From contig JAOANR010000009.1 in the NCBI GenBank assembly GCA_030278955.1, positions 41,986,245-42,050,244 on the forward strand: a DNA stretch of 64,000 nt. The letters are read 5' to 3'. This DNA is from Hygrophila difformis (lineage: Eukaryota; Streptophyta; Magnoliopsida; Lamiales; Acanthaceae). The position numbers were made by a program, and so were the translations under genes. Shown here in pieces: positions 8,655-64,000 of this stretch. The notes beneath the pieces were generated by a model that made no database searches, was not told where the DNA came from, and worked only from the letters and a program-made list of their open reading frames with translations. Positions within the stretch are counted from its first letter, which is position 1, and every line of letters starts with the position of its first letter.

Positions 8655-9118
8655 GGCACAGTTTCTTAAACACGAGCAATAAAAATATGACTACTTATAA
8701 ATATATCCCTAATCACAACCCCGCCATCATAAATTGGTTTCATTAAATAAAATCTAAACCAGGATCATGATTTTTCGGAAAATACTCATGTAGTGGGAAT
8801 CAGTCAAAAAGTTTCATGGCAGGGAATCTTATGGCAAGAATTGATGAGAAGTATCATGGCATATTCGCCGGGGATCCTCAGTGTGACAGGCTGAAGGTCA
8901 ACCTATCCCGGCTATGCCATGAGATTTGTCAACATTTCATGACAGAGAGGACCACAGCGCCATTTGAAACCACAGCACCACATTGAGTAATAAAAAGACT
9001 AATAATCTTGATATATCCCTAAACCCTTTCCCGTGAATCATAACTCTTTTCTTTTAATAAATTCTAACCTGGTATATTTTAGAAAACGCTTGTGTGGACG
9101 AAATTGTCAAAATTTTCA

Positions 9119-13889: not shown

Positions 13890-14717
13890 CTGTCGATTAC
13901 GTATCCAAATGGGTCGAGGTTGTCGCAGTTACCAACCAATGATGGTAGCCAAGTCATCAAGTTCCTCAAGAACAACATTTTCAGTAGATTTGGCATACCT
14001 AGGGTGGTGATATCTGATGGAGGAACACACTTTATTAATAAAGCTTTTGAAACCTTAATGAGTAAAAATGGGATCCTCCATAAGATAGGCACGTCTTATC
14101 ATCCCCAGACTAGTGGTCAAGTCGAAGTATCCAATCGCGAAATCAAACACATACTCGAGGCCACAGTCGGGATAACCCGTAAGGATTGGGCACGTAAGCT
14201 CAACGATGCTCTATGGGCATACCGCACAGCATATAAGACTCCCATTGGGATGTCTCCATATATGCTCATCTTCGGAAAAGCCTATCATTTGCCTGTAGAG
14301 CTAGAGCATAAAGCTTACAGGGCCGTTAAAACGCTCAACTTCAATCCGAAAGTTGCTCAGAGCAAACGTAAGTTGGACCTCAATGAAATTGAGGAAATAC
14401 GAGCGCAAGCTTATGAAAGCTCTCAAATTTACAAGGAGCGGACCCAGAAGTTACACGATCGCCGGATTAAGCCTAAGCATTTTCATGTTGGTCAAAATGT
14501 ATTGTTGTTCAATTCCAGGTTGAAGCTGTTCCCTGGAAAGCTCAAATCCAGATGGGAAGGACCACACGAAGTGTTAGAGGTGTTTGAAAATGAAGCCGTC
14601 AGGATCCGAACTGACAAGGGCAATATAGTGGTGAATGGACAGCGACTAAAAGAGTACATCGGACAGTTCGATCCGGAGAAAGAAAGCCAAGCAGTGGAAG
14701 ACCCGGCTTACACCTAA
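13890..14717 (+). pseudogene. pol: Athila-type pol: integrase core and C-terminus
   Basis: After the break near 13935 the frame from 13920 holds the second catalytic Asp ([10 protein letters not shown]) and the Glu ([14 protein letters not shown]), then [20 protein letters not shown] and the basic C-terminal domain ([17 protein letters not shown]). No chromodomain is present, as expected for Athila. Stop TAA at 14715-14717. The post-pol region begins directly after. Confidence 0.85.
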
Positions 14718-15189: not shown

Positions 15190-15595
15190 TCCGTGTCACG
15201 GAATCCCTCTTGTGTCGCTAGGCAATGCCTCACGCCAGGGGGGGGATAGCGACACGCTGCTTTAATACAGTGAGACCCCTGTCGCGGAACAGAACCGTGT
15301 CGCGAGGCGAGTGCCTCGCGACCAAGCTTAGTTCCGCGACACAATCTCATCTGTCTCCAACTCTCTCTGTCGCTGTCGCGAGATCCTTAGTCGCGAGGCA
15401 CTGCCTCGCGACTGGCTCCTTGTTCCGGGACACGACCCAAATTTGGCCACACCCCCTTGCTAAACTTGGTCGCGATACCCCTGTCGCGAGGCACTGCCTC
15501 GCGACCGGATTCCAGATTCGTGACACCTCTAATGTCGCTAGACCAGGTCGCGAAAACCAGTTCCGCGACACGCTCTAGGGTCCCGCGACCAGCCT
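15190..15595 (+). repeat. GTCGCG-core palindrome array upstream of the internal promoter (B)
   Basis: At the same place as 555-865 but with different arms: GTCGCGAGGC with GCCTCGCGAC (about 15300-15323 and 15389-15411) instead of GTCGCGATG/CATCGCGAC. The palindromic form is kept while the arm sequence changes. It ends just before the TATA box at 15602. Confidence 0.85.
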
Positions 15596-19549: not shown

Positions 19550-19885
19550 ACCCTGTCGCTAGAGCTCCCGTGTCGCGAAGCATGGTCTCGCGACACGGGA
19601 AGGATTGGCGACACAACAGCCCAAATGAAGAGGAGGCCAGTCCAAGAAGACTGTGTCGCGAGGCATGGTCTAGTGACACAGGATGGTTCCGCGCCACCAG
19701 CAGCAATTGGAGATAAATCCATGTCTCCAGACCCGTGTCGCGACACCCCGGTCGCGAAACATGACCTCGCGACACGGGCATGGTTGGCGACACAGATGCA
19801 TCAATGAAGACCCAAGACCCAGTCGAGAAGCCTTGCCATATGCAGTCTTGTTTCGCGACCGACTTCCAGTTCCGCGATACAGTGT
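19550..19885 (+). repeat. Palindrome array 1 in LTR B
   Basis: GTCGCG-core half-sites such as GTGTCGCGAAGC and CTCGCGACACGGG, upstream of the TATA box at 19953-19960. The flanking letters differ from LTR A in a matched way (GACAC/GTGTC in place of GACAA/TTGTC). Confidence 0.8.
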
Positions 19886-20584: not shown

Positions 20585-21130
20585 ATGTCGCCAACCTCTT
20601 CCTGTCGCGAGACCACGTCTAGCGACAGGAAGGTTGTTTCGCGACATGGACGCCTAGGGACACTTGTCTTGATATTTTGAAACCCTCGGTCGTGAGGCAC
20701 TCCTGTCGCGAACCCAGGGTTCGCGACACAACCCCTGCTTCGTGACTGGGGACCAAACTCTTGCCATTTTCCTCTGCATGGCTCCTGTCGCAATACACCC
20801 CTGTCGCGAACCCACGGTTCGCGACACACTTTTTGTTTCGAGACAGAGAATTATGCCTTGTCAAAATTCTTGAAAACCCAGTCGCTAGACCACCCTGTCG
20901 CGAGGCCACGTCTCGCGACACAATTTCCAAATCTAGTGACTGGGAACCAAATATTTTGAAAATTCTCAGAAAACCTTGTGTCGCCAGACTCCTGTCGCGA
21001 GACCACGTCTCGCGACACACTCTCTGCCTAGCGGCACAAGGCAAGGTTCTGCTGAAATTTCTAAAAACCTGTCAAAATACCCATGTCGCAAGCTTCGGTT
21101 CGCGACACAATTTATGGTTTTACGACAGGA
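20585..21130 (+). repeat. Palindrome array 2 in LTR B
   Basis: Position-matched with 5678-6215. Perfect examples: 20802-20826 (TGTCGCGAACC, CAC, GGTTCGCGACA) and 20993-21017 (TGTCGCGAGAC, CAC, GTCTCGCGACA). At 20598-20632 the stem is 16 bp with one mismatch. The CAC loop is the same as in A; the arms are changed on both sides. Confidence 0.9.
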
Positions 21131-45349: not shown

Positions 45350-45751
45350 TTAGTCAATCTGGTGCCAACTTCCATCGGACTGTCGACACTGCAACAATCT
45401 TCCATTGAGAATTTCTTCAGGATCTCCTTTGCATATTTTTCTTGTGAGATAAAAAATTCCTTCTTCATCTTGCTTGACTTCAATGCCTAGGAAGTATTGT
45501 ATCAATCCCAGATCGGACATTTCAAACTCCTTTTCCATTGATTTCTTGAACTCCTGGATCAAGGCCTTATCATTTCCTGTAAAGATGATGTCATCAACAT
45601 ATAGACATACCAATAAAAATTCTCCAGACAGGTTTCTTTTTGCATATAGGGAGTGCTCATATGGGCACTTTACAAATCCATTTTCGATAAAGTATTTATC
45701 GATTCTTGAATTCCAAGCTCTTGGTGACTGCTTCAATCCATAGAGCGCTTT
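45350..45751 (-). pseudogene. pol: Copia reverse transcriptase, C-terminal piece
   Basis: Begins at the insertion point with ALYGLKQSPRAW, then CPYEHSLYAKRN, the catalytic LYVDDIIFTGND, and DLGLIQYFLGIEV. The open frame continues upstream to 45976, but that extension is LTR of element R. The N-terminal piece is at 62794-63744. Confidence 0.9.
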
Positions 45752-46120
45752 TGAAACTTTTGACAATTTCCGCACACGAGTATTTTCTGAAATATCCCAG
45801 GTTATATTTATTAAATGAAAAGAGTTATGATTTGGGGGAAATGGGTTTAAGGATATATTCCACTTTTTATTACTCATGAGAGTAAACTTGAGTTCAAGTG
45901 TCATTACGAACCTCCTCGGCATGAAATCTCTGACAATTTCATGCCTTGAAGATCCTTGCCATAAAACTTTTGACAAGTTCTCTCTTCATGAGTATTTTCT
46001 GAAAAATCGTAATCCTGGTTTTCAATTTTTAGTTAAAGAAACAAATTATGATAGCGGAATAGGATTAGGGATATATTTATAGGTTGTCACGTTTTTATTA
46101 CTCGTGTTAAGAAACTGTGG

Positions 46121-46201
46121 CCCGAAAGCGCACGGTGTCAAAAATTGCAGTAATTTATAGTAAGACCGGATCGTTCACTGGAGGATGTGCGATAGAAGCA
46201 G
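46121..46201 (-). promoter_or_regulatory. 81-bp invariant LTR block (R, 3' LTR)
   Basis: Reverse complement identical to 8574-8654 and 23137-23217. Confidence 0.75.
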
Positions 46202-48459
46202 AGCCCACATCGTTTATTAAGATTTTTCACTCGGTTACTCGATTCAAGTGTGTGTTTGATTATCGACTACTTGACAGAATTTAAACTAAGTTATGAAAGC
46301 AATTAAAATAAAGCAGATAAAATTATTCTAGAAAGCGAATGAAATTCAATCTAAGTAAGCGATAAAATTATTCTAAGAAAGCGGTTAAGATTATTCTAGG
46401 AAAGCATATTTAAAATGAGACAGAAGGGACAGGAAGAAAATAATAAATATTGGACAAGATTCAGATGAAACACAGTTAAACTTCCGTTTTTTAATACGCA
46501 GATCTTAGCTTGGGATAATCCATTCAGTTAGCCAATTTTTCATGCTCTCTATACCATGTTCCCTTTAACAGACAGGTACTTACAGTAAGAGTTTACATGC
46601 TCTTAAGAAAACAAACTCTAAGATACCACAAACTTATAACTCCCCTTGCAATGCCTTGCAAGAGTATGTTAGCCATCTGTGGTGGGCAAGCAACACCTGA
46701 CAAATCATTAGTTGAAGTGGCAAGTACCGCTATCATTCCCCCATGTCACACCCAAAGATTCTAATTAAGCCATGAACTATCCCTTAACTCTCAGTCCTAG
46801 TAGCAGTTACGCAACTCTCAATACAACCGAGTGACCTCTAAAGAAAGCAGTTAAAAGAAAGCAGTAAAGAAAGCATTTAAAATCCTATCACTCGGAGGTT
46901 TTTGAAAGTCTGACCCTGGTAGTAAGAGAAAGCCCCCAGTCAGAATGACTGGGTGTGGATCAAGAATTCCCTATTCTCGGTGAACCGCTCGCAGTGTTCA
47001 CTTCCCGTCGGGTGGTTATGAGATACAAACAAATGAAACGAACTAATAGATTAGTTCGTTCCAGATGCACTCACTCAGGACTCAAGAATAGGCATTGGCA
47101 GAGGAGGATAGCAGTTGAAAGGAACTCAACCCTATCTTAGAAAATAACCAAGGCCTATGTATTGTTCCTCTAGAATTATCTATCACACCGTATTTGAATC
47201 CAAGTAGACCCCATCTCAGTGTGATATTTAATACCAGATTTCCAACACACAGCAATTTTGGAAAGCAATAGATGTTTGAAAATCATTCCCTATCAGGTAC
47301 TAGACTCTCAATTAAAACACAGATCCTTTCAGTCTAGGCGAGACCTAATCGCTGACTCTGCTTCTAATTTCCCAAAATCAACCCCAATCGGAGATAAATT
47401 AGTCATAACTGTGGAATTTATCCCTTACTCAGATCCGGATTTTATAAATGAATTTTTGTTGGAAATTTAATATGAGACATCTGATTATAAAATCAAGACT
47501 TCTATGTCCAAGGGAAGGATCCCAAAATAATATTGACCACAATATTTACATAATAATATCATGCATAATTTTATAGAGAAGTGTAAAATAAAATAACCCA
47601 AAATATAAGGCGGGTTTAGACAGAAGTTGATACACAGAGATGAAATAGCCGGAGATGAGAAGAATTTTGGCTAAAGAGATGACAAAATAATTAGGGTAAA
47701 TTGGATTTCAGTTATCTGTGGTCCAGTTCCCTAATTATTAAGGTGAGATGATTTTAGACAGCAGAAGATCTTAATAACAGTGATCGCTATCATCAAGACC
47801 CCTACTATCTGTGAAATGAGAGAAAAACCTACATGTTTTCTTACTGCAGTACTATTCAAGCAATGTTGATCGACATCGTTTGATAATATTACAGCTCGAA
47901 ATTCAGGTTTGAAATTAAGATAAAGAAAATAAAACTGTATCCGGATAGGAGTCAGCCGAGCAGCTATTATAATCCCGGATGGACGAACCGCCAAGGCTTC
48001 CACCGACCACTATTCGGACCATGCAAAATAACATCTAGTAATTAATATACAGATCACGAGCTAGTTATCCGTACCCGCCAACATTAATCTGTATATCATC
48101 TACTAACTGTTTCACACAACACAGGTAAAGACAAAACAAATAGAAAGGAAAATATTTTTGGGTCATCTCGCATGAGAGACATTGGTTTCTCATGCAAGGG
48201 TATGAAATTAATTCCATAATTACTCTTCATGTCTAAATAATCACTCATTCCATAATTAAATAATTACAGTCCGGATTATATGCTTAGATCATTAGAGTTT
48301 AATTACTTGTAGAAGAGTCTTTTAGTGGAATTGAACAAAATTCTTTATATCAAAATAATCATGGGTTGAGATCATTGGATTTCAACCTCAAATATTAATA
48401 TAAAGGTCCAATTAATTACTGAGGAAGATGGAGAATATAAATTTGGCAAAAAGATGCCA

Positions 48460-48685
48460 CTTTGTCGCGGAGTAGAGTTTGTGTCGCGGACCATGGGTCT
48501 GCGACAAGGGTTTCGCGACAAAGGGTGGGAAATGAGAGGAATGGGATTTTGAAAATTAGGGTTTCGCGACCAAGGGTTTCAAAATATTGCTAACAAGTGT
48601 TCTTTGGCACCTTTGTCGCCAAAGTATCATTTTGTCGCGGAACGTGGTTCCGCGACAAGAGTTGTTCCGCGACAAAGGTGTGTCC
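48460..48685 (-). repeat. Palindrome array 2, R 3' LTR (shortened)
   Basis: Has the GTCGCGGAC palindrome near 48490 and a full arm-loop-arm copy near 48635-48660. The block that holds three more palindromes in the other LTR (61175-61430) is absent, with the joint at GGGTTTCGCGACC. Confidence 0.85.
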
Positions 48686-49303
48686 AGGACACATGTCAGA
48701 AAAGTAAGGTGGAACAGTGGCATGCATTGTGTGTGATCTCACCCATTTCAGATTCAAAAGCTAAACTAAGCTAAAAATGACAAAACAGAATTTGAATCTA
48801 GCTAGAACATGCTTGAACATAATAGAAATAAAACAAACTTAAAACTGAAGAAACCCTAATCTAAGCTCGATCACCCATAAACATGCAACATTATCCAAAG
48901 AAAAGTCACCAACCAGTGGCATTAAAATGAAAAATAAGGATCAAATGACCAAAAGAAAATGAAGGCAGTAAGATCCATGGGGTGTGAGACCCATTTCATG
49001 ATTTTTGGAACACTTTTCAAGAATATTCTCCCATCTTATTAAGTGGGTTTGTTAATACCTATGATTTTGGGTATCACTAAACCCTAAGCAAAAGTTTAGA
49101 ACAAGAAACAAGATGTAAAAACTGGCTATCTAAACTAAAATGCTAGAAACTACATCTAACTAATGCATAAATTAAATAACACAAGAAAAACCTAACTAAA
49201 CTACCCTAAACTAAACTAAACTAACTGAGCTCCCAACTTGTCTTCAAGAGTGTATATTCTCTCTAAAATTCTTCCAACTCTCCAGCTCAAAGGAAATACC
49301 TCA

Positions 49304-49311
49304 TATTTATA
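49304..49311 (-). promoter_or_regulatory. TATA box, R 3' LTR
   Basis: TATAAATA then TGAGG on the minus strand, in the conserved context. Confidence 0.6.
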
Positions 49312-49379
49312 GAGGGGAAACCCTAAGCTCATGGGCCTTGATTTGAGCCCATTGTGTCTCAAGACATCACACACATCAC

Positions 49380-49615
49380 AGCTTTGTCTCGGAGCATCAA
49401 CTCTGGTCGCGGAACACACTGCATGTGGCAAAGCTTCTCGACTGGGTCTTGTGTCTCTAAAAGTGCATCTTTGTCGCGGAATAGATACCTTTGTCGCGGA
49501 ACAGGACATCGCGACAAAGGTATCGCGACAAAGGTATCCTGGCTGGTCTCCTCTTCATCTGAGTCTGCTTGGTCGCGGAACCATGCATCGCGACAAATGA
49601 GCTTCCGCGACAAGG
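49380..49615 (-). repeat. Palindrome array 1, R 3' LTR
   Basis: GTCGCGGAA and CATCGCGAC half-sites. It has one extra TTTGTCGCGGAA unit (about 49472-49491) relative to the 5' LTR and lacks another (62410-62430 region). Confidence 0.8.
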
Positions 49616-49930
49616 GTGCTCCTGGGCCTGCTGGATTGGGCCAGATGGGCCGAAAATATTCTTTTTGTGGGCTTTTCTATCTTTTTCCCATCTTTTTCAT
49701 TCCTTTTTCTTTTCATTTCTTTTTCTCATGTTTTTGAATTTTTCTAACATAAATATGTAATAAAATTATATATTTATGCCTTTTTCACACCAGCTTATTA
49801 TTTTAACAATTATGCATAAATCAATCCAATTCAACTGCTTTCTTACTTAATGTAAGACCGGAATGCGATCAAATGCCCGTTTCAGACACGGAAATGGATT
49901 GAAAATAATGGTCATTTCTGGCCATTATCA

Positions 49931-51561
49931 ACATCCTCACATTTAATACTGATCGTCCCCGAGCAGTCAGAGTCAATGTTCCTAAGAACACGGACTCTGC
50001 ATATTCAATTCATTTTCGTGGCTTCATAAATCACATTTTTTTTGGATTGGGATAAGACAATCAAAAACTACAAGTATTAAGTTCCCTTGATTGCAGTGTT
50101 TAATGAAATGATACTTGCTCACTACATCGGGCCTACAAATCAACATTATTATCAATCCTTTATGAACATCATGTTTGAAAGATGCAAAGATTAAAAATGA
50201 GAATCAAGGGATGACATGAACACTTTAAATGAAACAGAGCTTCACATATATGAGAATTGGAAAATTCACTCACTCTCAATGGGGTTTAATCAGTGAACAC
50301 TCAAAGTCAAATTTAATTAAATTATCCCATAAGCTTGCAATTGGACCAACTCGCCACCGGCTCATTTCTTCAAATCGAGATCATGAGGTCTTATTCAAGG
50401 GTTATAACGGGGCTTACGGTTGTAACAAAGGTGAGAAAGGGAATTTATTGGGCTAAGAAGTGGCAAGAGCTCATTCCATCATGACTTGGCATATTTTTAT
50501 TAGAATTTATGATCATCAATATTTTTCTTTCTTTCTTTTGCTTTTCTCTTTCTATTGCATGACATTAGACTATGTCTAATTTGCTTTGTTATTTGCAATT
50601 TATTTGTGTTGAATGTTGAATGGAGTTCAACTCTTTTTTTTTTTTTTTTGATCGGTTTGTGAGATACCGATTTACACAGCTTTGACGATCATAAATTAAA
50701 TGCCATTGATAGGATTTATTCTTGCACACTTGGGTTTGAAATTCTTGGTCTTTTTGTAAAGATAGGAGTAATATAGAGGGCTTCAAAGAAAAATTAGGCT
50801 TTAAGGCTCAACTTGGTTAATCCTAAAGGGTAAATATTTTTGGGTTTGGATTTCAAACGAAGGCCAAAAATCTGGGTTTTTCTAGGTGCCTCGATCATAT
50901 GCTCGATTTTGGGAATATGGCATGGTCTTGAATCGGTCCCATTCGCAAGTTCTAGTTTCCTTTAATCAAATTGATTAACACATCAAAGAAAATGAATGAG
51001 TAAAAGTGACTCATGGCTCAAACCTCACAAGGTTGGGTTGATTCATGTCATACAATATTCTCAAATTTAATCAAAGCTTAATTCTAACAATTTATTCAAC
51101 CCAAATCTCTAACATGCAGATTTATTACCCAATAAGCTGATCGCATCATTAAATTTTTATAACTCAGAACCTTAGGAATTCATTTCATGCATGTCTTCAA
51201 TTATATTATCCCAATTTAAAAGTTGAAAATTTAATCACAAGCCTAAATTCAACATGTGAATTTAGAGCAAGTCTATGCATATTTTTGCTGGTTATTTAAT
51301 TGAAAGCAGTAAAGAGGCACTGCTGACATACAGAGTATGTCCACAGCATATTTTTGGCCTGACAGTCACTTATTCATCTTGGACTGTGCAGACATCTTTT
51401 CAAGAATAAAATTGTTTGGACTGCAAAATTCCAAAATTAAAACAGTGAATGATATCAATTACAAGAGATTCTGTTGCAATCAGAACGATTTTGCACAAGG
51501 GAAATGAAATTCTCTTATATGATATTCACAATTAAGCTCAATTGAAAAGACCATTACATGC
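49931..51561 (-). other. Conserved noncoding 3' region of element R
   Basis: Inverted homologue of 2786-4393 and 17588-19241, with the GACATAC/GTATGTC hairpin near 51330, the TGAATTTAG palindrome near 51255, and hairpin 3 plus GAGGATGT at 49929-49980. No gene. Probable 3' UTR of the cargo gene. Confidence 0.65.
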
Positions 51562-54500
51562 TCAATCTGTCTTCTCTCCTGGCGGATTCGATGGTCCTGC
51601 TGCATCTGATGGAGGTGGGAGTGGCTTGGGGAGTTGACTGATGAGTGCTTGTAGCAGTGTTTCCATCATCTTGCGCTGCTTTTCTTCGTTCTCCAATCTT
51701 TCTTTGTGCATGCGCTCTTCCCTTTCCATCATCATTTTCTTGAATTCCTCCTCTTTCTTTTCCTTCTCTTGTTTCTCCTTTCGCTTCTCTTCCTTTTCTC
51801 TCCTACGCTCTTGGCGTTCTTCTTCTCTCTCCCTCCTTCGCTCTTCACGTTCCTCTTCGGCCCTTTTTCGCTGTTCCTCTTGGCTTGCCATAACTACATT
51901 AGTCATAGACTTCATTCCCTCGAGCACAGATTGACTCATCTTGCTCACCATCTCAAATGCTTGGGAATCAACAGGGAATTGAGATACGTTCTGGCTTTGA
52001 GGAGGCATCTGAGGTTGAGGTCGAGTCGGAGGTGGAGTCGGAGCTGCCGGAACTGGAATCGGTGTCTCTGTCTGTTCTTGGTCCGTGTGAAGCTCTTCTT
52101 GGACATTTGAAGGTCCTGCATCAGCACAGGTTTTCTGTGTTCCCTTCTTTGTCTTGGGCTGTCTCTTTCTTTTTCTCGATGCCTGCCCACTGGATATGAA
52201 AGAGGATTGGGCGTCTGAATCTCCTCTGCCGAACATTTGAGGGAGAGAATATCTAATACTCTCACACAGGGGAAGTCTCGGCACACTGATGGGTGGATTC
52301 ACTTTTACCAACATGTCACCCTCGAAAGCGCTCAAATCAATTCCCTGAGCAATGCAGATCCTCCTAATCAGATTTGGATAGCATAGCACCTGTCTGTCCT
52401 CTATCCGGGTTATCATTACTTCGAACACATGCCTCCCCACATTCAGTTTCGCTCCGCTCCACATTCTTGCAAATCCCATCAATACATTCCCAGATGTGGT
52501 GTGCGGGTGCGAATTAGGCCGGATCTTAGACATGTAAAACTCATAAGTTGGCATGAATTTCAGATTCAGCCAATTTGTGTCGAATGTGTGCCCGGGGGCA
52601 GTTATTCTTGTCATGCTGTTTGCCAGAGTTGCATATCTTGCATATTCGCTTGTCTTGGCTCTTTTCGTCATAATTTCATCAGGGGGAAACTCGCTTCTAA
52701 TGTCCGGAGTCCCAAAGAACTGATTCAGCCAGTCAGGTGCAATGTTTATCACTTGTCCTCGGATCCATGTTGTTCTGGTAGCTTTGTCGATATTGCAGAA
52801 GAATTCCTTTGTTAGCTCCACGAAGCCATCTTCCTCCTGGTGCAGCATGAAGTTCCCCCACTCTTGATTTTTGTAGAAGGTCTCAACAGTGGGGTGAGAC
52901 AAGGCATCGGGTCTGAATCCTTTGTCCGGCACTATCCTTTTCTGCAACTTCTTGTACTTTTCTGCATTCTCTTTGTTGTCATTGAATTTGATCTGAACCT
53001 GTTCTGCACTCAGCTCTTTCTTCTCATATTCCTTTGAAACGCCCATCCTCTGCCTCACAGTATTCTCGGACCAGAACTCGACTGGCCGAATGGATCCGAC
53101 AGATTCGTCGTCGCTCGTGTGCCAGTCTGTTCGATCGTCTCCTTCCTGTGGCTGGGCATCCATTCGTTCAGCTTCATCTCTCCTCTGACTAGGCTCTCCT
53201 TCTCCATGAGCTGTTTCATCTCTAAGTTCCTCCTCATCTTCCCTAATTCGTGTGGCTTGCCCAACAGGATGTTGGAAGATGGGTGCCAGCTGCTCCATAA
53301 ATTCATTCTCTTCCTGCATGGCCTCCTCTCTGTCATCAGTCATGTCCTGTGATTTATTCGCTTTGGCTTGTGGCTCTATAACCCTTTGTTGCTCAACGGC
53401 TTTTTCTTTTAGCAAATCCGCCAATGTGACTGGGTTCGTGGGAGTTTCGGCAGTTCTGATCACGGCTTCGATTCTGGCAGTGCCCACAAGTGGATCAATC
53501 AATTGACCCACTTCTGTCTGATATCTGATCTGGTCTGGCTTTTCTCCAGCATCGATTCGCGTCTCAATTTGTTCATTGATGTTAACTCTCAGTTCTTCCC
53601 GAATGGCTTCAACACTACGAATAGGAGGGCCAGTCCATCCAGATGGTTGTTCTTCCTTGATTTTCAATCCTTTTCCTTCTACTCCACCAGTGATTTTCAA
53701 CTCGTAGTCTTCTTCATCACCCTGTTCAGCCTCTCCAGATTTCCTACTTTCCAGATCAGCTTGCATCTTTCTGGCAGTTTCTTCGTCCTTTGTTTGCTGA
53801 ATATTCTTTCTGATCTGCTCTTCCTCTGCAGCTTTCTTTTCCTTTGCCAAGAGTTCTTCCTCAGTCACTTTCTCCAATCCCGAACCACCTGTTGCTTGAT
53901 CAATAAGGCCGGCTGATGCAAATTCTTCTTCTTGCAATTTTCTGGCTAGCTCAGCATCGACTTGATGCTTCTTTTTCGGGGGTGGTGGTGGCATCGGCTT
54001 CTTACCTCTGTCCTTGGGATCTGTGGGCTCTGCCACTTTCCTAGCAGTTGGCTCAGGTTCTCTGATTGATACTTTAGGCTCCGGGGCCCTTGCTGGTTTC
54101 TCTTGGTCTGCTAACTTGATCAATTTCTTCTTAGGCTGCTTAGGAGGTTCAGACTGGAATGAGGCTGGTGCTGCAGCAGGTGCTGGCCTTTCAGACTGAC
54201 TCGGCTGGATTGGAGGTTCGGGCATAGCAGCAGCTGATTCTGATGCATGAGTAGTTTCTTGCTGTTCCACAGGCTCAGTGGTGGCAAATTTTTGCACTTC
54301 AGGTTGCCCTCTTGGCGGCAAAGCTGAAGCTTGTACTGCTGGCTGGGTAGGCTGTGGGTTGGCCTCAGGAGGAGTGGAAAAGTAGGCATCAATCTCAGCG
54401 TCTGGATCTTCTTCTCTGTTTGGTTCATCCTCATAGCCTAGTTGCTTCTCGGCGCGCTGTAAGTAATCCTCAATGAAACTCTTTTGAGTGATTCTCCCCA

Positions 54501-57244
54501 GCTGGTCCTCCCAGTCCTTCTTGATCTTGGTGCAGAACTTACTCCGGACATTATTGTTGTAATGCAGAATTTTCTTCCCATTTGCAGTGCTATTGCAATA
54601 CTCAAGTGCGAACTTGTCTATCTCCATGATCAGATCCCAGTAAGAATCCCTGTAATGATTCATCATGCCCCCTATCAGATCCTTCTGAATTCCTTCAAGG
54701 TAGGACATATCTTTTGCCGAATCATACTTGAGATACAATCCAGCCTCAGTTTTTGATAGTAACTCGAACTGCCTTTCCTTTTTCTTTTTGGGCTTCCAGC
54801 CACCTTTGCGTATATCTACTTGCAGTTGTTCCCTTAATACTGCTATGTGCTGGGGAAATTCATCATCCTTGTTTGTTCCATACCGTCCATACCTTCTATG
54901 TGTGAAAATGGTTTCAAGTACCTCATCTGCAGGTAACACTACTCCCTCATCCAGAAAGGACTTAGTGATACTTGTATTGCCTTTTCCCCAGACCGTAGTC
55001 AGTTCGTCCCATTGATCGCGTGCATCCTTGATCATCTTCCTCATTGTATTCAATAATGAGGTGTTGTGGCTTTGTTCAAATTTCTCAGCGTGTTTGAGGC
55101 GCTTGTACAGATTGAAGGTCAACTCCCTATGCCTGGCACGGGCTAGATCTGCAATCCACCTTTGTTCCACCGGTCCTCTAGCCTCAAACAGATAAGGGTT
55201 CCATTTGAATGGAAATGCTTCATACATCATGATGGCCCCACTGTTTATGACCCTACTTAGATCCATCTGCTTGTGCTCGAAGGCCATCCAAACTTGAGGA
55301 TCTATGATCTGATTAGGGATGATGATGTCAAACTCAGCGATCTTTGGGTCTTTCGTCCCTTTTTCTACATGTCGGTTCCACACAGCCCTGTGCTCTTTGA
55401 ACTTTAGTTTGATGCGTTCGTGGTGGACTTCTGGAGTTGTCTTTTCATCTTGGGGGGCATGATCCATCATCCTCATCCAAAACTTCTTCAGAAAATGATA
55501 GTAATCCCTCTCTATCGATGCAGCAACTATTGTTCTGTTTTCTGGAGGAATGTGCACGTCCCATCCCGGGGGAAATTTCAGTTTCTCATCCGTAGTGTGG
55601 TCCAGAGGTACTTTGTGAACTGTTTTGATGGCATCTCTCATGTTCTTAATTTCTGTTCGATCAATTGAGGCCTCCTTGCCAGCAGCCTCATATGTGCAGT
55701 CAGGCAACCCGATGCCTGATTGTACTACCAACTCATTCCTGAAAAATCAACATCCAAATTTTTATAGTTTAGACACATCCAAATTTTTATAGTTTTTCAA
55801 AGATTATTCAAGTTTGAAAATCAACATCCTCACATTTTGAGCTTTGCTAAGCTCGAAATGTGATTTAAGTGATTTGATCTTAAGTTTATTAAAAAGTCCA
55901 AAGATAAGGTATTGGTGTCTTAGGACCTAGAAGAAGATATCTTGATTGGACTATTGAGTCCAATCAAAGGGAGAAATAAAAATAAAATGGTCATTGGACC
56001 AAAAATTCCTTTTTTAATGGGCCATTGGGCCCAAAAGTTTGTTTTTCAAATTTTATTAAACAAGCTCGAGGCACTTGTTGAAAATGGAAAGAAATAACGG
56101 CGATGGAATGGATTGCTCGAGAATGGAATGTGCAATGGAGACGTGGCGGAGTGGATTCGCTATTTCCGGATTGTTTGGACTGTCATTGGACAGTTAAAAC
56201 GTTCAAGAAAATTTGCAAACACTATTTTTGATTTTTGAAAAGGTTGAATTGATTTTATTTAATGAAAAGTGGGATGTGTGTGGTCCCATTTTTGGATTTT
56301 GGAAAAAGATAGCAGTTGAAGTGGCAAAAACACTGCTACTTTACTCACACTTTTTAGTTCCATTGGGAACAAAAACACAATTGTCAACCAAAACTCCTAC
56401 CAACTATTTTTGTCTTTTTGTGAAAAAGTGAATGGCAAAAGGGGATTTGGTGTGCACTGGGATTGCCAAAAACATAACAAACATTCACTTTCATATCTGC
56501 AGCATACATACACAGTCATGCCAAACAGGGAAAAACATTAAATGAACATATTGGCATGCAAAGAACATGGTCATAGCACAACATGAACATAGGATCAAAC
56601 ATCTACCCTAGCCAAAACAAGGAATCACACTGTCTCATGCTTCATAATCATGAAATCAAACGCAGTAACATGCTTCAAACTAACAACATCAAGACATTCA
56701 AAAATGCCCATATGCTCGTTGGTTTTCCAAATTTCACCATTCTAGGAATTTGAGAACTTCAACAGGTTTCCTCAGATAACTAAATCAACACTCAGACTAA
56801 AGATTTACAAAACAAAGGTAGAATAACTAAGAACCCAGTAGAGCCCTAAAAATTAAAAAAAAAACAGAACAATGGTGATTCTACCCCCTAACTGCTACTA
56901 TGCTCTCCAACAGCCCTAAGTTCAAAAATTTCAAAAATCAATAACCGAACTCCCTTGTGCATTCATAACACAAAACAACACTCCCCCTTCCTCTAAATCA
57001 TGCTCGGCCATTACAGTAATAAACAGGGAATCAAAATCTAACATGCCCAAACCACACATTCCCTAAAATCGAACTCCCCTAAGTGAAAAAGACCATAAGG
57101 AAACCTATTCACACCTTCTCAAAAATCAAAACACGAGAATCCCTAAAAACGCGAAAACAGGGGCAATGGGTGCGCGAGAAACAGACAAGATAACACTTAC
57201 CAGGGCTCGGCTTTCTTTGGAGATGACGAAGACGAAGGTTCCAT
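51562..57244 (-). CDS. Spliced cargo gene of element R, about 1,406-residue coiled-coil protein
   Basis: Model: exon 1 57244-57201 (ATG, 14 codons plus 2 nt, MEPSSSSSPKKAEP), donor GTAAGT at 57200, intron 55739-57200, acceptor TTTTTCAG, exon 2 55738-51562. The first base of exon 2 completes a Trp codon and the frame stays open to the stop. Exon 2 has no nearby ATG of its own. Numbered from 55731: 1-440 is globular and rich in aromatic residues, unrecognised; 445-600 is Pro/Ala/Glu-rich; a Lys/Glu coiled coil (AELARKLQEEEF) lies near 600; 935-1165 resembles the plant 'putative plant transposon protein' domain (PF20167-like: TTWIRGQVINIAPDWLNQFF, then LLGF-like and YPNLIRRICIAQGIDLSAF); a basic stretch RKRKRQPKTKKG near 1185 may be a nuclear signal; 1280-1350 is a highly charged coiled coil. 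No membrane segment, so not an obvious envelope protein. Function unknown. No stop or frameshift is seen, which suggests recent constraint. Confidence 0.75.
55739..57200 (-). other. Inferred intron of the R cargo gene
   Basis: GTAAGT to TTTTTCAG, 1462 nt. It contains hairpin 2 (55821-55861) with GAGGATGTTGA, 80 bp before the acceptor. Homologous blocks with the introns of A and B include the segment around 56100-56460. Confidence 0.7.
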
Positions 57245-57404
57245 AGTGATTGTGCGCGAAAATCGGGCAGAGTAACGCCTGGAAGTGGTAGGAAACGAGT
57301 GCGAGGAACACTGTGGTGTTCTTCGGGAAAGGTTTTCGTGTATGAGCAGTTTTCGAAAATTTTCTAAGTCTGAATGTGTAGGGAAGAAGAGGGAGGGGAA
57401 GGGG

Positions 57405-57412
57405 TTTAAGTA
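57405..57412 (-). promoter_or_regulatory. Weak TATA-like box of the R cargo gene
   Basis: The minus strand reads TACTTAAA at the place of TATTTATA in A and B, about 160 bp before the ATG and just after the palindrome array. Confidence 0.4.
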
Positions 57413-57419
57413 CTAATGG

Positions 57420-57840
57420 GCTGGTCGCGGAACCCTAGCCCATTGTCGCGGAACAGGGTTACGCGACCAGGCCTTGGCGACATTAGAGGTGTCGCGGAAT
57501 ATGGGACTTTGTCGCGGAGTCATACTCCGCGACAAAGGGTACCGCGAAAGAATAGGAAGTAAAAATTGGGATGAAGTGTGCTCGTGTCGCGGAACAGGAG
57601 CTTTGTCGCGATGCAGTGCTCCGCGACAAAGTATTCCGCGACAAAGACAAACAGAGCTCAAGGATGAGTGAAATTTTGTCGCGGAGTTGCACTTGATCGC
57701 GATGCTGTGCATCGCGACAAAATGGTTATTCCGCGACAAAGACAAACGGGGTTTGATGATAAGGGGAACTTTGTCGCGGAGTTGCACTTGGTCGCGGAAC
57801 GTTGTTCCGCGACAAAATGGTCATTCCGCGACAAACTTTT
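57420..57840 (-). repeat. GTCGCG-core palindrome array upstream of the R cargo gene
   Basis: About a dozen half-sites. Pairs include GTCGCGGAGT with ACTCCGCGAC (about 57512-57533) and GTCGCGGAAC with GTTCCGCGAC (about 57791-57813). It abuts the inferred promoter. Confidence 0.85.
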
Positions 57841-58185
57841 TGAATTTTCAAATTTTCAACGGACTGGGCCCGAGTGTGATGTTGGGCCTGAGTCCATTTT
57901 ATTTGATTTGGACCTGAATGAATTCAGTCCAAATAAATTCAAAACATTGGGCCATTATTTAAAATAATCTACTTGCATAAAATTAGGTTGGGTCAGTTCC
58001 ATCTATCTGCGAGATTTATTCCGGATTTTAAATTGCTTTAAATTCCGAAAATAATTTCTTAGATTTGTGGAATTTACCCAACCAAGAACCTGGTTTTCCA
58101 TGCTTTTTCTGCTCCTTCTTTTTGGGTGGTTCCGAATTTCCTGCAAGACAGATAAATACCCAATAGGTTAGGTTTTCTCCTCAGT

Positions 58186-58224
58186 TCAACATCCTCACAT
58201 TTAGAGTCTTGGTACTCTAAATGT
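58186..58224 (-). repeat. Hairpin 1 plus GAGGATGTTGA (element R)
   Basis: ACATTTAGAGT (58197-58207) and ACTCTAAATGT (58214-58224) form a perfect 11-bp stem; GAGGATGTTGA follows on the minus strand at 58196-58186. It lies only about 130 nt from the primer site because gag-pol is missing. Confidence 0.8.
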
Positions 58225-58336
58225 TCAATTAATCTTGAGGGTACTTTTTCTGTTCTGAATTAGATATATTACACTAAACTAAGCTAATCTATGAGTAATC
58301 AGGAGTGTAATACTCTTAATAAACGATGCTGCATCC

Positions 58337-58354
58337 TCCCCGGCAACGGCGCCA
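58337..58354 (-). other. Primer binding site, tRNA-Asp type (R)
   Basis: On the minus strand TGGCGCCGTTGCCGGGGA directly follows the LTR end TTTCA. It is complementary to the 3' end of plant tRNA-Asp as I know it and is the primer used by Athila relatives. Perfect over 18 nt. Confidence 0.9.
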
Positions 58355-58723
58355 TGAAACTTTTGACAATTTCCGCACACGAGTATTTTCTGAAATATCC
58401 CAGGTTATATTTATTAAATGAAAAGAGTTATGATTCGGGGGAAATGGGTTTAAGGATATATTCCACTTTTTATTACTCATGAGAGTAAACTTGAGTTCAA
58501 GTGTCATTACGAACCTCCCCGGCATGAAATCTCTGACAATTTCATGCCTTGAAGATCCTTGCCATGAAACTTTTGACAAGTTCTCTCTTCATGAGTATTT
58601 TCTGAAAAATCGTAATCCTGGTTTTCAATTTTTAGTTAAAGAAACAAATTATGATGGCGGAATAGGATTAGGGATATATTTATAGGTTGTCACGTTTTTA
58701 TTACTCGTGTTAAGAAACTGTGG

Positions 58724-58804
58724 CCCGAAAGCGCACGGTGTCAAAAATTGCAGTAATTTATAGTAAGACCGGATCGTTCACTGGAGGATGTGCGATAGAA
58801 GCAG
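58724..58804 (-). promoter_or_regulatory. 81-bp invariant LTR block (R, 5' LTR)
   Basis: Reverse complement identical to 8574-8654. Confidence 0.75.
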
Positions 58805-61069
58805 AGCCCACATCGTTTATTAAGATTTTCCACTCGGTCACTCGATTCAAGTGTGTGTTTGATTATCGACTACTTGACAGAATTTAAACTAAGTTATGAA
58901 AGCAATTAAAATAAAGCAGATAAAATTATTCTAGAAAGCGAATTAAATTCAATCTAAGTAAGCGATAAAATTATTCTAAGAAAGCGGTTAAGATTATTCT
59001 AGGAAAGCATATTTAAAATGAGACAGAAGGGACAGGAAGAAAATAATAAATATTGGACAAGATTCAGATGAAACACAGTTAAACTTCCGTTTTTTAATAT
59101 GCAGATCTTAGCTTGGGATAATCCATTCAGTTAGCCAGTTTTTCATGCTCTCTATACCACGTTCCCTTTAACAGACAGGTACTTACAGTAAGAGTTTACA
59201 TGCTCTTAAGAAAACAAACTCTAAGATACCACAAACTTATAACTCCCCTTGCAATGCCTTGCAAGAGTATGTTAGCCATCTGTGGTGGGCAAGCAACACC
59301 TGACAAATCATTAGTTGAAGTGGCAAGTACCGCTATCATTCCCCCATGTCACACCCAAAGATTCTAATTAAGCCATGAACTATCCCTTAACTCTCAGTCC
59401 TAGTAGCAGTTACGCAACTCTCAACACAACCGAGTGACCTCTAAAGAAAGCAGTTAAAAGAAAGCAGTAAAGAAAGCATTTAAAATCCTATCACTCGGAG
59501 GTTTTTGAAAGTCTGACCCTGGTAGTAAGAGAAAGCCCCCAGTCAGAATGACTGGGTGTGGATCAAGAATTCCCTATTCTCGGTGAACCGCTCGCAGTGT
59601 TCACTTCCCGTCGGGTGGTTATGAGATACAAACTAATGAAACGAACTAATAGATTAGTTCGTTCCGGATGCACTCACTCAGGACTTAAGAATAGGCATTG
59701 GCAGAGGAGGATAGCAGTTGAAAGGAACTCAACCCTATCTTAGAAAATAACCAAGGCCTATGTATTGTTCCTCTAGAATTATCTATCACGCCGTATTTGA
59801 ATCCAAGTAGACCCCATCTCAGTGTGATATTTAATACCAGATTTCCAACACACAGCAATTTTGGAAAGCAATAGATGTTTGAAAATCATTCCCTATCAGG
59901 TACTAGACTCTCAATTAAAACACAGATCCTTTCAGTCTAGGTGAGACCTAATCACCGACTCTGCTTCTAATTTCCCAAAATCAACCCCAATCGGAGATAA
60001 ATTAGTCATAACTGTGGAATTTATCCATTACTCAGATCCGGATTTTATAAATGAATTTTTGTTGGAAATTTAATATGAGACATCTGATTATAAAATCAAG
60101 ACTTCTATGTCCAAGGGAAGGATCCCAAAATAATATTGACCACAATATTTACATAATAATATCATGCATAATTTTATAGAGAAGTGTAAAATAAAATAAC
60201 CCAAAATATAAGGCGGGTTTAGACAGAAGTTGATACACAGAGATGAAATAGCCGGAGATGAGAAGAATTTTGGCTAAAGAGATGACAAAATAATTAGGGT
60301 AAATTGGATTGCAGTTATCTGTGGTCCAGTTCCCTAATTATTAAGGTGAGATGATTTTAGACAGCAGAAGATCTTAATAACAGTGATCGCTATCATCAAG
60401 ACCCCTACTGTCTGTGAAATGAGAGAAAAACCTACATGTTTTCTTACTGCAGTACTATTCAAGCAATGTTGATCGACATCGTTTGATAATATTACAGCTC
60501 GAAATTCAGGTTTGAAATTAAGATAAAGAAAATAAAACTGTATCCGGATAGGAGTCAGCCGAGCAGCTATTATAATCCCGGATGGACGAACCGCCAAGGC
60601 TTCCACCGACCACTATTCGGACCATGCAAAATAACATCTAGTAATTAATATACAGATCACGAGCTACTTATCCGTATGGGAATACCCGCCAACATTAATC
60701 TGTATATCATCTACTAACTGTTTCACACAACACAGGTAAAGACAAAACAAATAGAAAGGAAAATATTTTTGGGTCATCTCGCATGAGAGACATTGGTTTC
60801 TCATGCAAGGGTATGGAATTAATTCCATAATTACTCTTCATGTCTAAATAATCACTCATTCCATAATTAAATAATTACAGTCCGGATTATATGCTTAGAT
60901 CATTAGAGTTTAATTACTTGTAGAAGAGTCTTTTAGTGGAATTGAACAAAATTCTTTATATCAAAATAATCATGGGTTGAGATCATTGGATTTCAACATC
61001 AAATATTAATATAAAGGTCCAATTAATTACTGAGGAAGATGGAGAATAAAAATTTGGCAAAAAGATGCC

Positions 61070-61530
61070 ACTTTGTCGCGGAGTAGAGTTTGTGTCGCGG
61101 ACCATGGGTCTGCGACAAGGGTTTCGCGACAAAGGGTGGGAAATGAGAGGAATGGGATTTTGAAAATTAGGGTTTGTTTTGTCGCTAAGCAAAAATTTTG
61201 TCGCAGAACATGGTTCCGCGACAAGGAGGTATAGCGACAAATGGTTGAAAATTGGACAAGGGCATAATTCTTGTCGCGGAACAAGAGGTTTTGTCGCGGA
61301 ACGTGGTTCCGCGACAAGGTTGCTTCGCGACAAAGCCCTTCCAGAATAAAATCACAAGTATTTGGGTCCTTGGTCGCCAATCAATGATTTTGTCGCGGAA
61401 CGTGGTTCCGCGACAAGAGTTGTTTCGCGACCAAGGGTTTCAAAATATTGCTAACAAGTGTTCTTTGGCACCTTTGTCGCCAAAGTATCATTTTGTCGCG
61501 GAACGTGGTTCCGCGACAAGAGTTGTTCCG
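61070..61530 (-). repeat. Palindrome array 2, R 5' LTR
   Basis: Five arm-loop-arm palindromes. 61390-61416 is perfect (TTGTCGCGGAAC, GTG, GTTCCGCGACAA on the plus strand, so CAC in the element sense). Others are near 61096, 61200, 61293 and 61493. Confidence 0.9.
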
Positions 61531-62163
61531 CGACAAAGGTGTGTCCAGGACACATGTCAGAAAATAAGGTGGAACAGTGGCATGCATTGTGTGTGATCTC
61601 ACCCATTTCAGATTCAAAAGCTAAACTAAGCTAAAAATGACAAAACATAATTTGAATCTAGCTAGAACATGCTTGAACATAATAGAAATAAAACAAACTT
61701 AAAACTGAAGAAACCCTAATCTAAGCTCGATCACCCATAAACATGCAACATTATCCAAAGAAAAGTCACCAACCAGTGGCATTAAAATGAAAAATAAGGA
61801 TCAAATGACCAAAAGAAAATGAAGGCAGTAAGATCCATGGGGTGTGAGACCCATTTCATGATTTTTGGGACACTTTTCAAGAATATTCTCCCATCTTATT
61901 AAGTGGGTTTGTTAATACCCATGATTTTGGGTATCACTAAACCCTAAGCAAAAGTTTAGAACAAGAAACAAGATGTAAAAACTGGCTATCTAAACTAAAA
62001 TGCTAGAAACTACATCTAACTAATGCATAAATTAAATAACACAAGAAAAACCTAACTAAACTACACTAAACTAAACTAAACTAACTGAGCTCCCAACTTG
62101 TCTTCAAGAGTGTATATTCTCTCTAAAATTCTTCCAACTCTCCAGCTCAAAGGAAACACCTCA

Positions 62164-62171
62164 TATTTATA
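62164..62171 (-). promoter_or_regulatory. TATA box, R 5' LTR
   Basis: TATAAATA then TGAGG on the minus strand, about 70 bp downstream of array 1. Candidate promoter for the element RNA. Confidence 0.6.
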
Positions 62172-62239
62172 GAGGGGAAACCCTAAGCTCATGGGCCTTG
62201 ATTTGAGCCCATTGTGTCTCAAGACATCACACACATCAC

Positions 62240-62480
62240 GGCTTTGTCTCGGAGCATCAACTCTGGTCGCGGAACACACTGCATATGGCAAAGCTTCTCG
62301 ACTGGGTCTTGTGTCTCTAAAAGTGCATCTTTGTCGCGGAACAGGACATCGCGACAAAGGTATCGCGACAAAGGTATCCTGACTGGTCTCCTCTTCATCT
62401 GAGTCTGCTTGGTCGCGGAACATTCCTTGGTCGCGGAACCATGCATCGCGACAAAGGAGCTTCCGCGACAAGGGTGCTCC
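62240..62480 (-). repeat. Palindrome array 1, R 5' LTR
   Basis: GTCGCGGAAC, CATCGCGAC and TTCCGCGACAA half-sites. An extra GGTCGCGGAACATTCCTT unit is present relative to the 3' LTR. Confidence 0.8.
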
Positions 62481-62793
62481 TGGGCCTGCTGGATTGGGCC
62501 AGATGGGCCAAAAATATTCTTTTTGTGGGCTTTTCTATCTTTTTTCCATCTTTTTCATTCCTTTTTCTTTTCATTTCTTTTTCTCATGTTTTTGGATTTT
62601 TCTAACATGAATATGTAATAAAATTACATATTTATGCCTTTTTCACACCAACTTATTATTTTAACAATTATGCATAAATCAATCCAATTCAACTGCTTTC
62701 CTACTTAATGTAAGACCGGAATGCGATCAAATGCCCGTTTCAGACACGGAAATGGATTGAAAATAATGGTCATTTCTGGCCATTATCAGCTTT

Positions 62794-64000
62794 CTTCAAC
62801 CTGTACACCTTGTCTTCTTGGCCTTCAATTATGAATCCAGGTGGTTGCTCAACATAGACAACCTCTTCAAGATTTCCATTCAGAAATGCGGATTTAACAT
62901 CCATTTGATGTATCTTCCACTTCTTTTGAGCTGCTAGTGAAATGAGCAGCCTCACTGTTTCAAGCCGGGCAACTGGGGCAAAGACTTCTTCATAATCAAT
63001 TCCATATCTTTGATTGTACCCTTTTGCAACAAGACGGGCTTTGTGCCTTTCGATTTCTCCTTTTGCATTTCTTTTCGTCTTGAACACCCATTTGACTCCA
63101 ATTGCTCGATGTCTGTCAGGAAGTGATGTGAGCTCCCATGTATTATTTTTTTCAATGGCTTGAATTTCTTCCTCCATAGCTTTTTGCCACTTGAATTCTT
63201 TAGAGGCTTCTTGAAATGTCAATGGGTCAAGACCTGCAAATAGACAGAAATTATTGAATTCATCATCAATTGGCTCACTGGAGTCACATATGTCCTGGAC
63301 CCTTCTTGTTCTTCTCACAATAGGACTATCATCAGAGGATTGGCTTTCAACTTCAACATGATCAGGTACCATGTCCTCCATTTGTTGTTGCTGTTCTTTT
63401 TGCTTTTCATGTTCATCATCAAAAGGAACATGCTTGGTCTGCTCATTTTCATTCAATCTCCAAGTTTGATCCTCGTTAAAGATAACATCTCTTGACATCA
63501 CCACTTTGCGGGTTACAGGATTGTACAGTTTGTACCCGCTGCAATTTTCACCATAGCCAAGAAAAATGCAATTTTGGCTTTTATCTTCAAGCTTTGTACG
63601 CTTTTCTTCTGGCACTTTTGCAAAACAAAGGCTTCCAAAAATTCTCAGATGATCAACTTTTGGCTTTTTCCCACTCCAGGCTTCTTCGGGAGTTATGTCT
63701 CCAATTCTCTTTGTCAGGGACCTGTTCAACAGATAGACAAACAATTTACAGCATCACTCCAAAATTCTTTGGGAATATTTTTCTCTTTCAGCATACATCG
63801 AACCATATTCAAAATTGTTCGGTTCTTTCTTTCTGAAAGACCATTTTGTTGTGGTGTATATAGCATCGTGAGTTGGTGTGATATCCCATGCTCTCTGCAA
63901 AAATGATCAAATTCTCGAGATGTGTATTCTCCACCACGATCTATCCGCAGGCACTTTAATTGGCACCCACTTTGTTTCTCAACAAGGTTTTTAAATTCCT
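62794..64000 (-). pseudogene. pol: Copia integrase and RT N-terminal part
   Basis: 64000 to about 63750 reads the integrase core (RIDRGGEYTSREFDHFCREH, then TPQQNGLSERKNRTILNMV, with catalytic Asp and Glu). A frame change near 63745 leads into 63744-62794: [56 protein letters not shown], then RT with [40 protein letters not shown] and [14 protein letters not shown]. It ends at LKK, where element R is inserted. Confidence 0.9.

Follow-up and report, generated by a model that had tools for sequence, protein, structure and literature searches.

Non-autonomous LTR retrotransposons are usually viewed as parasites that keep cis-acting signals only, or gag, and a large retrotransposon derivative (LARD) is defined as non-coding. 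The "gag" of the Athila elements of Arabidopsis is Athila ORF1. In Arabidopsis thaliana, non-autonomous Athila elements that lack pol retain intact ORFs, are propagated in trans and form recombining families (Marco and Marin, 2008, PMC2410132); in families II, IVc, Va and VI purifying selection on gag and env is seen from omega values of 0.19-0.38. In sunflower, Athila 14 has an additional ORF at its 3′ side with PF20167, a domain that the same paper calls related to Athila ORF1 (PF03078) (PMC11728184).

Element R, in the 64,000-nucleotide stretch of Hygrophila difformis DNA analysed here (the window), has no pol and an ORF under purifying selection, as do the Arabidopsis elements, but where those families are described as keeping the ORF called gag, with env optional (PMC2410132), R keeps only a post-pol accessory gene. 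It shares with sunflower Athila 14 the PF20167 domain, the 3′ position in Athila and predicted nuclear signals, although the sunflower ORF, of 487 aa, is presented as an extra beside GAG and POL in an account that mentions no intron (PMC11728184). Like TR-GAG, R is an LTR element with a single ORF, for which transposition may be possible without most of the encoded proteins, but the ORF kept by TR-GAG is gag and that of R is not a recognisable gag (PMC8704663). The 3′ gene of R, with its predicted splicing, recalls the env-like ORF of barley Bagy2 as reported, which needs splicing, but differs in having its own short coding exon 1 with an adjoining promoter-like region and in having no membrane segment (PMC7264820). 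With LTRs of more than 4 kb and no gag-pol R resembles a LARD, but unlike one it codes for 1,406 aa, and these are under selection.

Structure of element R

Element R is 17,037 bp long (45752-62788), with its sense on the minus strand (Table 1). Both LTRs have the termini TGATAATGG...AAAGTTTCA, and they differ by 41 substitutions in 4,158 aligned positions (K2P 0.0099). The cis-acting parts that a preliminary description had ascribed to R are all there, namely two TG...CA LTRs, a target site duplication (TSD) of 5 bp, a primer site and a PPT-like tract, the features by which an LTR retrotransposon is recognised. The insertion interrupts a Copia-like reverse-transcriptase frame and is flanked by Copia-like frames at 62770-63753 and 45350-45985. 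The primer site, an 18-mer, occurs in 21 of 21 copies (exactly in 17) and presumably matches tRNA-Asp. The primer sites of Calypso and Diaspora have been reported to pair with tRNA-Asp (PMC1142308). That a single gene is the sole coding content of R, as had been claimed, agrees with a tblastn search of its internal region, on both strands, with gag, RT, RH and INT of the window's Athila, which recovered no gag or pol remnant (best E = 1.3).

Table 1. Features of element R (window coordinates).
Feature	Position	Strand	Remarks
TSD AAAGC, 5′ side (element sense)	62789-62793	-	
5′ LTR	58355-62788	-	4,434 bp
Primer-binding site TGGCGCCGTTGCCGGGGA	58337-58354	-	immediately follows 5′ LTR
Approximate junction, gag-pol Athila leader / post-pol sequence	58262-58280	-	place of gag-pol deletion
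Site A, 16-mer AAATGTGAGGATGTTG	58187-58202	-	PPT-like; 3′ arm of predicted hairpin
TCGCG(G)A repeat array	57424-57825	-	presumed internal promoter
TATA-like box CTTAAA within AGTACTTAAACC	57405-57410	-	then CT-rich stretch; putative function
Exon 1	57201-57244	-	ATG, 14 codons + first two bases of Trp codon
Intron (predicted)	55739-57200	-	1,462 bp, GTAAGT...TTTTTCAG
Site B, second 16-mer copy	55822-55837	-	close to intron 3′ end; predicted hairpin
Exon 2 including stop	51562-55738	-	1,391 codons following split Trp
Conserved N-terminal region, ~residues 1-450 of exon 2	54388-55737	-	pN/pS ratio 0.11-0.19 per 100 codons
PF20167 (Transposase_32) domain	52336-52866	-	E = 2e-13
Basic stretch RKRKRQPKTKK	52144-52176	-	NLS-like
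Charged E/K/R-rich stretch	51658-51876	-	likely coiled coil, judged by eye
3′ region, stop codon to 3′ LTR	49931-51561	-	83% to window gag-pol Athila
Site C, third 16-mer copy	49929-49944	-	PPT-like tract + first TG of 3′ LTR
3′ LTR	45752-49930	-	4,179 bp
TSD AAAGC, 3′ side	45747-45751	-	

The gene and its predicted product

The proposed gene model, an ATG exon, a GTAAGT donor, a TTTTTCAG acceptor and about 1,406 residues, was recovered exactly: two exons joined through a split Trp codon give 1,406 aa with no internal stop (stop codon 51562-51564), whereas after mononucleotide shuffling of the internal region, repeated 200 times, no open frame exceeded 214 codons, the longest obtained. The promoter-like region that had been claimed could likewise be located; it consists of a repeat array, a TATA-like box and then CT-rich sequence, and it can be aligned across 21 of 21 copies; the TCGCG(G)A motif is also arrayed within the LTRs. 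The ATG of exon 1 is present in all 21 copies, with exon lengths of 41, 44 or 47 that all preserve the frame, the donor GT is kept in 21 and the acceptor AG in 20, and in every copy the intron is still in place. The splicing, promoter, expression and function of the gene are what we infer from its sequence.

A Pfam search bore out the suspected PF20167 domain (Table 1), which was matched in all ten open copies; PF03732 or any other capsid family was matched in none of the ten, and PF03078 was not matched in the R protein. Weak Pfam matches to RIP_P131-like, CAF1A_acidic, CPSF73-100_C and Arnt_C were set aside, as they failed the curated cut-offs or came nowhere near significance. The conserved N-terminal region had no significant Pfam or PDB match, and the bacterial surface protein that was the best PDB match to its profile (E 0.13) was taken as chance. 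Searches with the whole of exon 2, its C-terminal part and its N-terminal part returned no homologue outside Hygrophila difformis at E <= 0.001, in a collection whose plant coverage is uncertain. The suggestion of a nuclear factor is plausible, in that the protein has three basic stretches and a Kyte-Doolittle scan detected no transmembrane segment (highest 19-residue hydropathy 0.93, well under the usual threshold), and we take the product to be an accessory protein, probably a nuclear one.

Selection on the gene among copies of the R family

We compared R with 20 fetched copies, a sample biased to conserved copies because they were chosen as the best protein matches. In all 20 an R-type 5′ LTR and leader, and in none gag or pol, were found upstream of the gene. 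The frame, previously described as intact, is so in some copies, being open to its usual end or beyond in ten of the 21 examined but stopped early or shortened in the other 11; stops in most copies had been named as evidence against a useful gene, and stops are common, yet ten copies are open. Of the 150 places scored among the matches listed, 52 carry a frame of at least 1,380 aa.

Pairwise dN/dS among the ten open copies (45 pairs) was 0.10-0.41 with a median of 0.16, far below the value near 1 that had been named as speaking against function. In frame, pN/pS was 0.20. Both shifts of the sense frame raised it to 1.30-1.35, and simulated neutral change gave ~0.63; one antisense frame was likewise low (0.27), which we take as a mirror of codon position. 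Indels were multiples of three in 30 of 47 distinct exon-2 events versus 107 of 453 intron events. Among the close pairs, L026-L028 (0.32) and R-L009 (0.41) had high ratios, which is what decay of individual copies once inserted would produce. The dN/dS values, the frame and neutral controls and the kept splice sites thus support the earlier proposal that the gene is useful to the element, and show a gene preserved by selection, which suggests that it does something useful for these elements.

Origin of R and exchange of its modules

R has its LTR end, primer site and leader in common with the gag-pol Athila of this genome, of which two 5′ ends were compared. The R leader is 91.5% identical to L035 over 141 nt and 86.6% to L036, with the same LTR end, and the primer site is identical in L035 and has one change in L036. 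The post-pol, intron and 3′ regions match the window Athila and a related remnant at 1-4400 at 74-87% in long blocks. The leader match to L035 reaches ~58280 and post-pol homology starts at 58262. Since an Athila LTR end, primer site and leader are thus joined to post-pol sequence, gag-pol is missing by internal deletion. All 21 copies agree in the junction (eight of them inspected in the alignment), which points to a single origin; its spacing is 168 nt in 16 copies, 173 in one and 178 in four. As we read these similarities, R is a deletion derivative of the Athila lineage (Ty3/gypsy) that kept its accessory gene after gag-pol was lost, the name Athila being based on structure, a post-pol ORF with PF20167 and the type of primer site, not on RT/RH/INT phylogeny. 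Derivation of R from a spliced RNA is disfavoured by the intron in all 21 copies and by the junction, where no splice sites were seen by eye.

A tie to Athila downstream ORFs had also been suggested, and it was substantiated by an integrase-bearing Athila-type element at C11:41148469, which has in the same place, downstream of integrase, a full-length homologue of the R gene, 36-45% identical in long blocks. The R gene is therefore an accessory gene of an Athila lineage and not private to R, and this homologue makes an origin from a host gene less likely. Among ten integrase-bearing elements sampled, the slot held an R-gene homologue in this one, an F-box/TPR-type gene in eight and neither in one.

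Between R and L026, 26% of the four-fold sites of exon 2 differ, but only ~10-11% in the LTR and the 3′ intron (the 5′ part of the intron aligns poorly, inflating whole-intron values), and the distances of exon 2 follow those of the chassis only in part (r 0.38-0.73 between regions). Judging from such distances the modules of R recombine, so part of the selection on exon 2 could have acted in other backgrounds. Predicted hairpins with the PPT-like 16-mer sit close to the module boundaries.

Discussion

Why would an element without gag-pol keep so large a gene? We consider it likely that R is a non-autonomous Athila element, moved in trans after deletion of gag-pol, whose accessory protein is probably nuclear and aids its own lineage. 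The gene would be transcribed from the internal promoter (the repeat array and TATA-like box) and spliced once, while the RNA copied into new elements would be unspliced genomic RNA, because the intron is present in all 21 copies. Pol-bearing Athila relatives would supply Gag, protease, RT and integrase in trans, as the shared ends suggest, and the R protein, with its basic stretches, PF20167 and charged C-terminus, would raise the success of the producing copy or lineage at a step such as expression, entry into the nucleus or evasion of silencing.

If R were instead a pure parasite, it would need no product of its own, and its gene would look conserved because recombination with pol-bearing elements, where selection maintains exon 2, repeatedly renews that exon. 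The merely partial correlation of exon-2 and chassis distances would suit such a history, as would the homologue carried by an element that has pol. However, no R-type gene place (at least 33 and at least 150 places listed) lies within 12 kb downstream of the at least 140 integrase places listed, and the sole pol-linked homologue among the matches listed is mostly 36-45% identical, whereas the R-type genes listed are 80-100% identical to R; we regard this explanation as unlikely. Could the protein be a structural substitute, Gag-like or RNA-packaging, that coats its own RNA as in gag-only elements? Other non-autonomous plant elements are reported to keep gag, among them TR-GAG (PMC8704663) and Arabidopsis Athila (PMC2410132), and the long conserved N-terminal region belongs to no Pfam family, but the ten open copies are without a capsid match and gag-pol Athila has its PF03732 gag as a separate gene, which makes a structural role quite improbable. 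That the gene is an Athila envelope-like gene working at membranes has the post-pol position and single intron in its favour, as described for env-like ORFs (PMC7264820), but a protein with no candidate transmembrane segment and with basic stretches of nuclear type is a very poor candidate for such work, and we give the idea hardly any credence.

The reading of R as a trans-mobilised Athila whose protein aids its own lineage could be extended to a divided system, in which pol-bearing elements, most of those sampled having the F-box/TPR-type gene, would give the machinery and R-type elements a nuclear factor, with exon 2 exchangeable between them. LTR ends, primer site and a 3′ gene slot, with predicted splicing, are common to both types, and we hold such a system to be conceivable but doubtful. 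If it exists, the hairpins with the 16-mer may favour exchange or, within the intron, tag unspliced RNA for packaging, and R would be no failing parasite but a component dedicated to an accessory role.

Athila elements without pol but with selected ORFs are already on record (PMC2410132); the R family differs in keeping the accessory gene only. In a family without gag-pol in which a large, apparently spliced accessory gene is under selection, the benefit of that gene can be separated from that of gag-pol, and the exchange of an F-box/TPR-type for a PF20167 exon 2 within one chassis would provide a second handle on accessory genes. No coding content other than the R gene was found on which selection could act, so the role of extra ORFs in plant retrotransposons becomes directly testable.

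Element R and its family

Element R is bounded by LTRs of 4,434 and 4,179 bp, with the ends TGATAATGG...AAAGTTTCA common to both, and is flanked by a 5-bp target duplication, AAAGC; a primer site lies directly 3' of the 5' LTR and a PPT-like tract adjoins the 3' LTR. The LTR pair has 41 substitutions in 4,158 aligned positions (K2P 0.0099) which, at plant substitution rates of 0.25-1.3e-8 per site per year, would place the insertion about 0.4-2 million years ago. The two-exon gene was recovered as in the preliminary description, with 1,406 residues. We found no gag or pol homology on either strand of R with queries from the window's Athila-type element (best E 1.3), and the same queries recovered their source at E < 1e-150.

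A search of the plant's own genome (915 Mb, 246 contigs), with scoring confined to the top-ranking of 18,970 first-pass candidates, gave at least 58 matches to the R gene, which we grouped into 33 places. Leaving R aside, 32 places remained, and 20 of these were fetched, giving 21 copies with R. An R-type 5' LTR and leader precede the gene in all 20 fetched copies, and gag, RT, RH and INT were not detected in the fetched stretches at E <= 1e-5. Exon 1 is present throughout at 47 nt (11 copies), 44 nt (nine) or 41 nt (one), all lengths that preserve the frame; the donor GT is universal (GTAAGT in 17), the acceptor AG is replaced only in L016, by AT, and every copy has the primer site, exact in 17. 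With the PF20167 (Transposase_32) part alone as query, the best 150 of 6,809 candidates scored were 90-100% identical throughout, with open frames of at least 1,380 aa at 52 of these places and at least 1,000 aa at 76.

Separately, several R-type gene places share a strand and are spaced by about 12-16 kb (C12:31.88 Mb, C7:15.71 Mb, C9:46.55 Mb, C1:18.28-18.30 Mb and C11:1.74 Mb), a spacing resembling tandem LTR-internal-LTR-internal-LTR arrays.

Features of the window, by position
Feature	Position	Strand	Remark
Athila-type element, gag-protease	9061-11529	plus	PF03732
Athila-type element, RT	12020-12691	plus	
Athila-type element, RH	12643-13452	plus	
Athila-type element, INT	13890-14717	plus	
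Element R	45752-62788	minus	host sequence at insertion is a Copia-like reverse-transcriptase frame
16-mer AAATGTGAGGATGTTG, first element	181, 2039, 4380		
16-mer, second element	14830, 16837, 19228		
16-mer, R (sites A, B, C)	58187, 55822, 49929		
F-box/TPR-type gene copies	2213-2785, 16961-17473		both broken
TCGCGA/TCGCGGA arrays	558-858, 4712-4923, 5684-6206, 15281-15562, 19572-19853, 20604-21100, 48464-48666, 49406-49604, 57424-57825, 61075-61527, 62266-62462		LTRs and upstream of accessory gene exon 1

Selection on the gene and its likely expression

The preliminary description suggested that the gene is useful to the element, a view that dN/dS near 1 or random stops in most genomic copies would have refuted. 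Among the 45 pairs of ten open copies the median dN/dS (Nei-Gojobori) was 0.16 (range 0.10-0.41, dS 0.017-0.57), in a sample biased by its choice of best protein matches; two of the close pairs were high, at 0.32 and 0.41. Stops are common without being universal: ten of the 21 copies keep the frame open as far as the usual end or further, L009 having a different tail, and 11 have an early stop or shortened frame. Neutral simulation at 5-10% divergence gave 7 to 15 stops per copy and, with the observed transition bias, a pN/pS of about 0.63. In the same alignment the gene's own reading frame had a median pN/pS of 0.20; the shifted sense frames gave 1.30 and 1.35 and the antisense frames 1.17, 0.27 and 1.54, the 0.27 belonging to the frame that mirrors codon position. 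Constraint was strongest over the N-terminal 500 codons and the PF20167 region and weakest in the middle, and 30 of 47 distinct indel events in exon 2 were multiples of three, versus 107 of 453 in the intron.

Upstream of exon 1 a TCGCG(G)A array, a TATA-like box and a CT-rich stretch follow one another, alignable in all 21 copies, an arrangement that suggests an internal promoter. The motif occurs 121 times in the window versus 3.75 in mononucleotide shuffles, in LTRs too, and the window's two F-box/TPR-type elements have TTTATA at the TATA-like position. The protein has three basic stretches and carries PF20167 near its C-terminus; no membrane-like segment was found in it.

Relationship to gag-pol Athila elements

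R aligns with the window's Athila-type element after pol (76% over 58262-57381), in the intron (74% over 56377-55782) and across the 3' region as far as the LTR (83% over 51547-49931); its exon 2 has no alignment there. Two other elements, L035 and L036, have gag-pol frames of 1,994 and 1,988 aa and the same LTR end as R, with a primer site identical to that of R in L035 and one change in L036. The leader of R matches theirs down to about 58280 (91.5% over 141 nt for L035, 86.6% for L036), below which R turns to post-pol sequence. An alignment of eight of the 21 copies with these two leaders revealed one common junction, and the interval that begins with the primer site and closes with site A measures 168 nt in 16 copies, 173 in one and 178 in four. 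In the gag-pol Athila of the window itself, hardly any sequence separates the LTR end from the gag frame (9060-9230), and no primer site with up to three mismatches was found in that interval, whereas L035 and L036 do have one.

The slot of R's exon 2 is occupied in the window Athila by a small gene matching PF23310 (TPR_27). Open copies of this type begin with an F-box-like stretch (PF12937 at E 0.036, below the cut-off), and the gene may have been captured from a host F-box gene. Its dN/dS was 0.06-0.28 (21 pairs of seven open copies, some pairs with few changes); the best 150 of 6,337 candidates scored were 91-100% identical, seven with an internal stop. In the window and in L030-L034, L037 and L041 it has the form of a spliced-type gene of Athila elements. 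Among 140 listed integrase places, nine had one of these 150 genes within 8 kb downstream and none had a listed R-type gene within 12 kb downstream. Of ten such places sampled, eight carry the F-box/TPR-type gene (L037, L038, L040, L041, L043, L044, L046 and L047), L045 has neither gene and LTR-like sequence in the slot, and L039 with L042 (integrase at C11:41148469, frame of 835 aa) holds a homologue of the R gene along its whole length. This homologue, broken by frame-shifts, is identical to R at 39% over residues 1-184, 52% over 183-213, 36% over 218-1052 and 45% over 1043-1394.

Modules and the repeated 16-mer

Distances between R copies vary by region (r 0.38-0.73): for R and L026 the difference is 26% at four-fold sites of exon 2 and only about 10-11% in the LTR and 3' intron, and L026 and L027 have the reverse pattern, 5% against 8% in the LTR. 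We read this as module exchange by recombination, like that reported among Arabidopsis Athila (PMC2410132). Each of three window elements carries the 16-mer three times (nine places, plus one weaker match elsewhere; expected 0.13), after pol or the leader, at the intron end and at the 3' LTR. None of the 21 R copies lacks either internal site, and 41 of the 42 instances are exact. Single-sequence folding predicts a hairpin for almost every one of them, with a different fold for site A of L014; the repeat could be a recurring PPT, or a packaging or exchange site.

Place among known Athila elements

Marco and Marin (2008; PMC2410132) describe Athila families that are non-autonomous and keep gag, alone or together with env, under purifying selection. 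PMC11728184 reports a sunflower Athila with a PF20167 3' ORF, which it relates to Athila ORF1 (PF03078); R itself has no PF03078 match. The Arabidopsis ORF1 is the "gag" of Marco and Marin, so the naming could blur the contrast with R. The titles and abstract openings of the literature surveyed yielded no gag-less, pol-less LTR element with a conserved ORF and no F-box gene in Athila or LTR elements.

We conclude that the R family is a real, multi-copy family of Athila lineage that lacks gag and pol and whose single accessory gene is under selection; what we infer beyond this concerns its mobilisation partner, its splicing and the function of its gene. Because an integrase-bearing element carries a full-length homologue, the gene of R counts among the genes of pol-bearing Athila elements, and R kept that gene and lost gag-pol.
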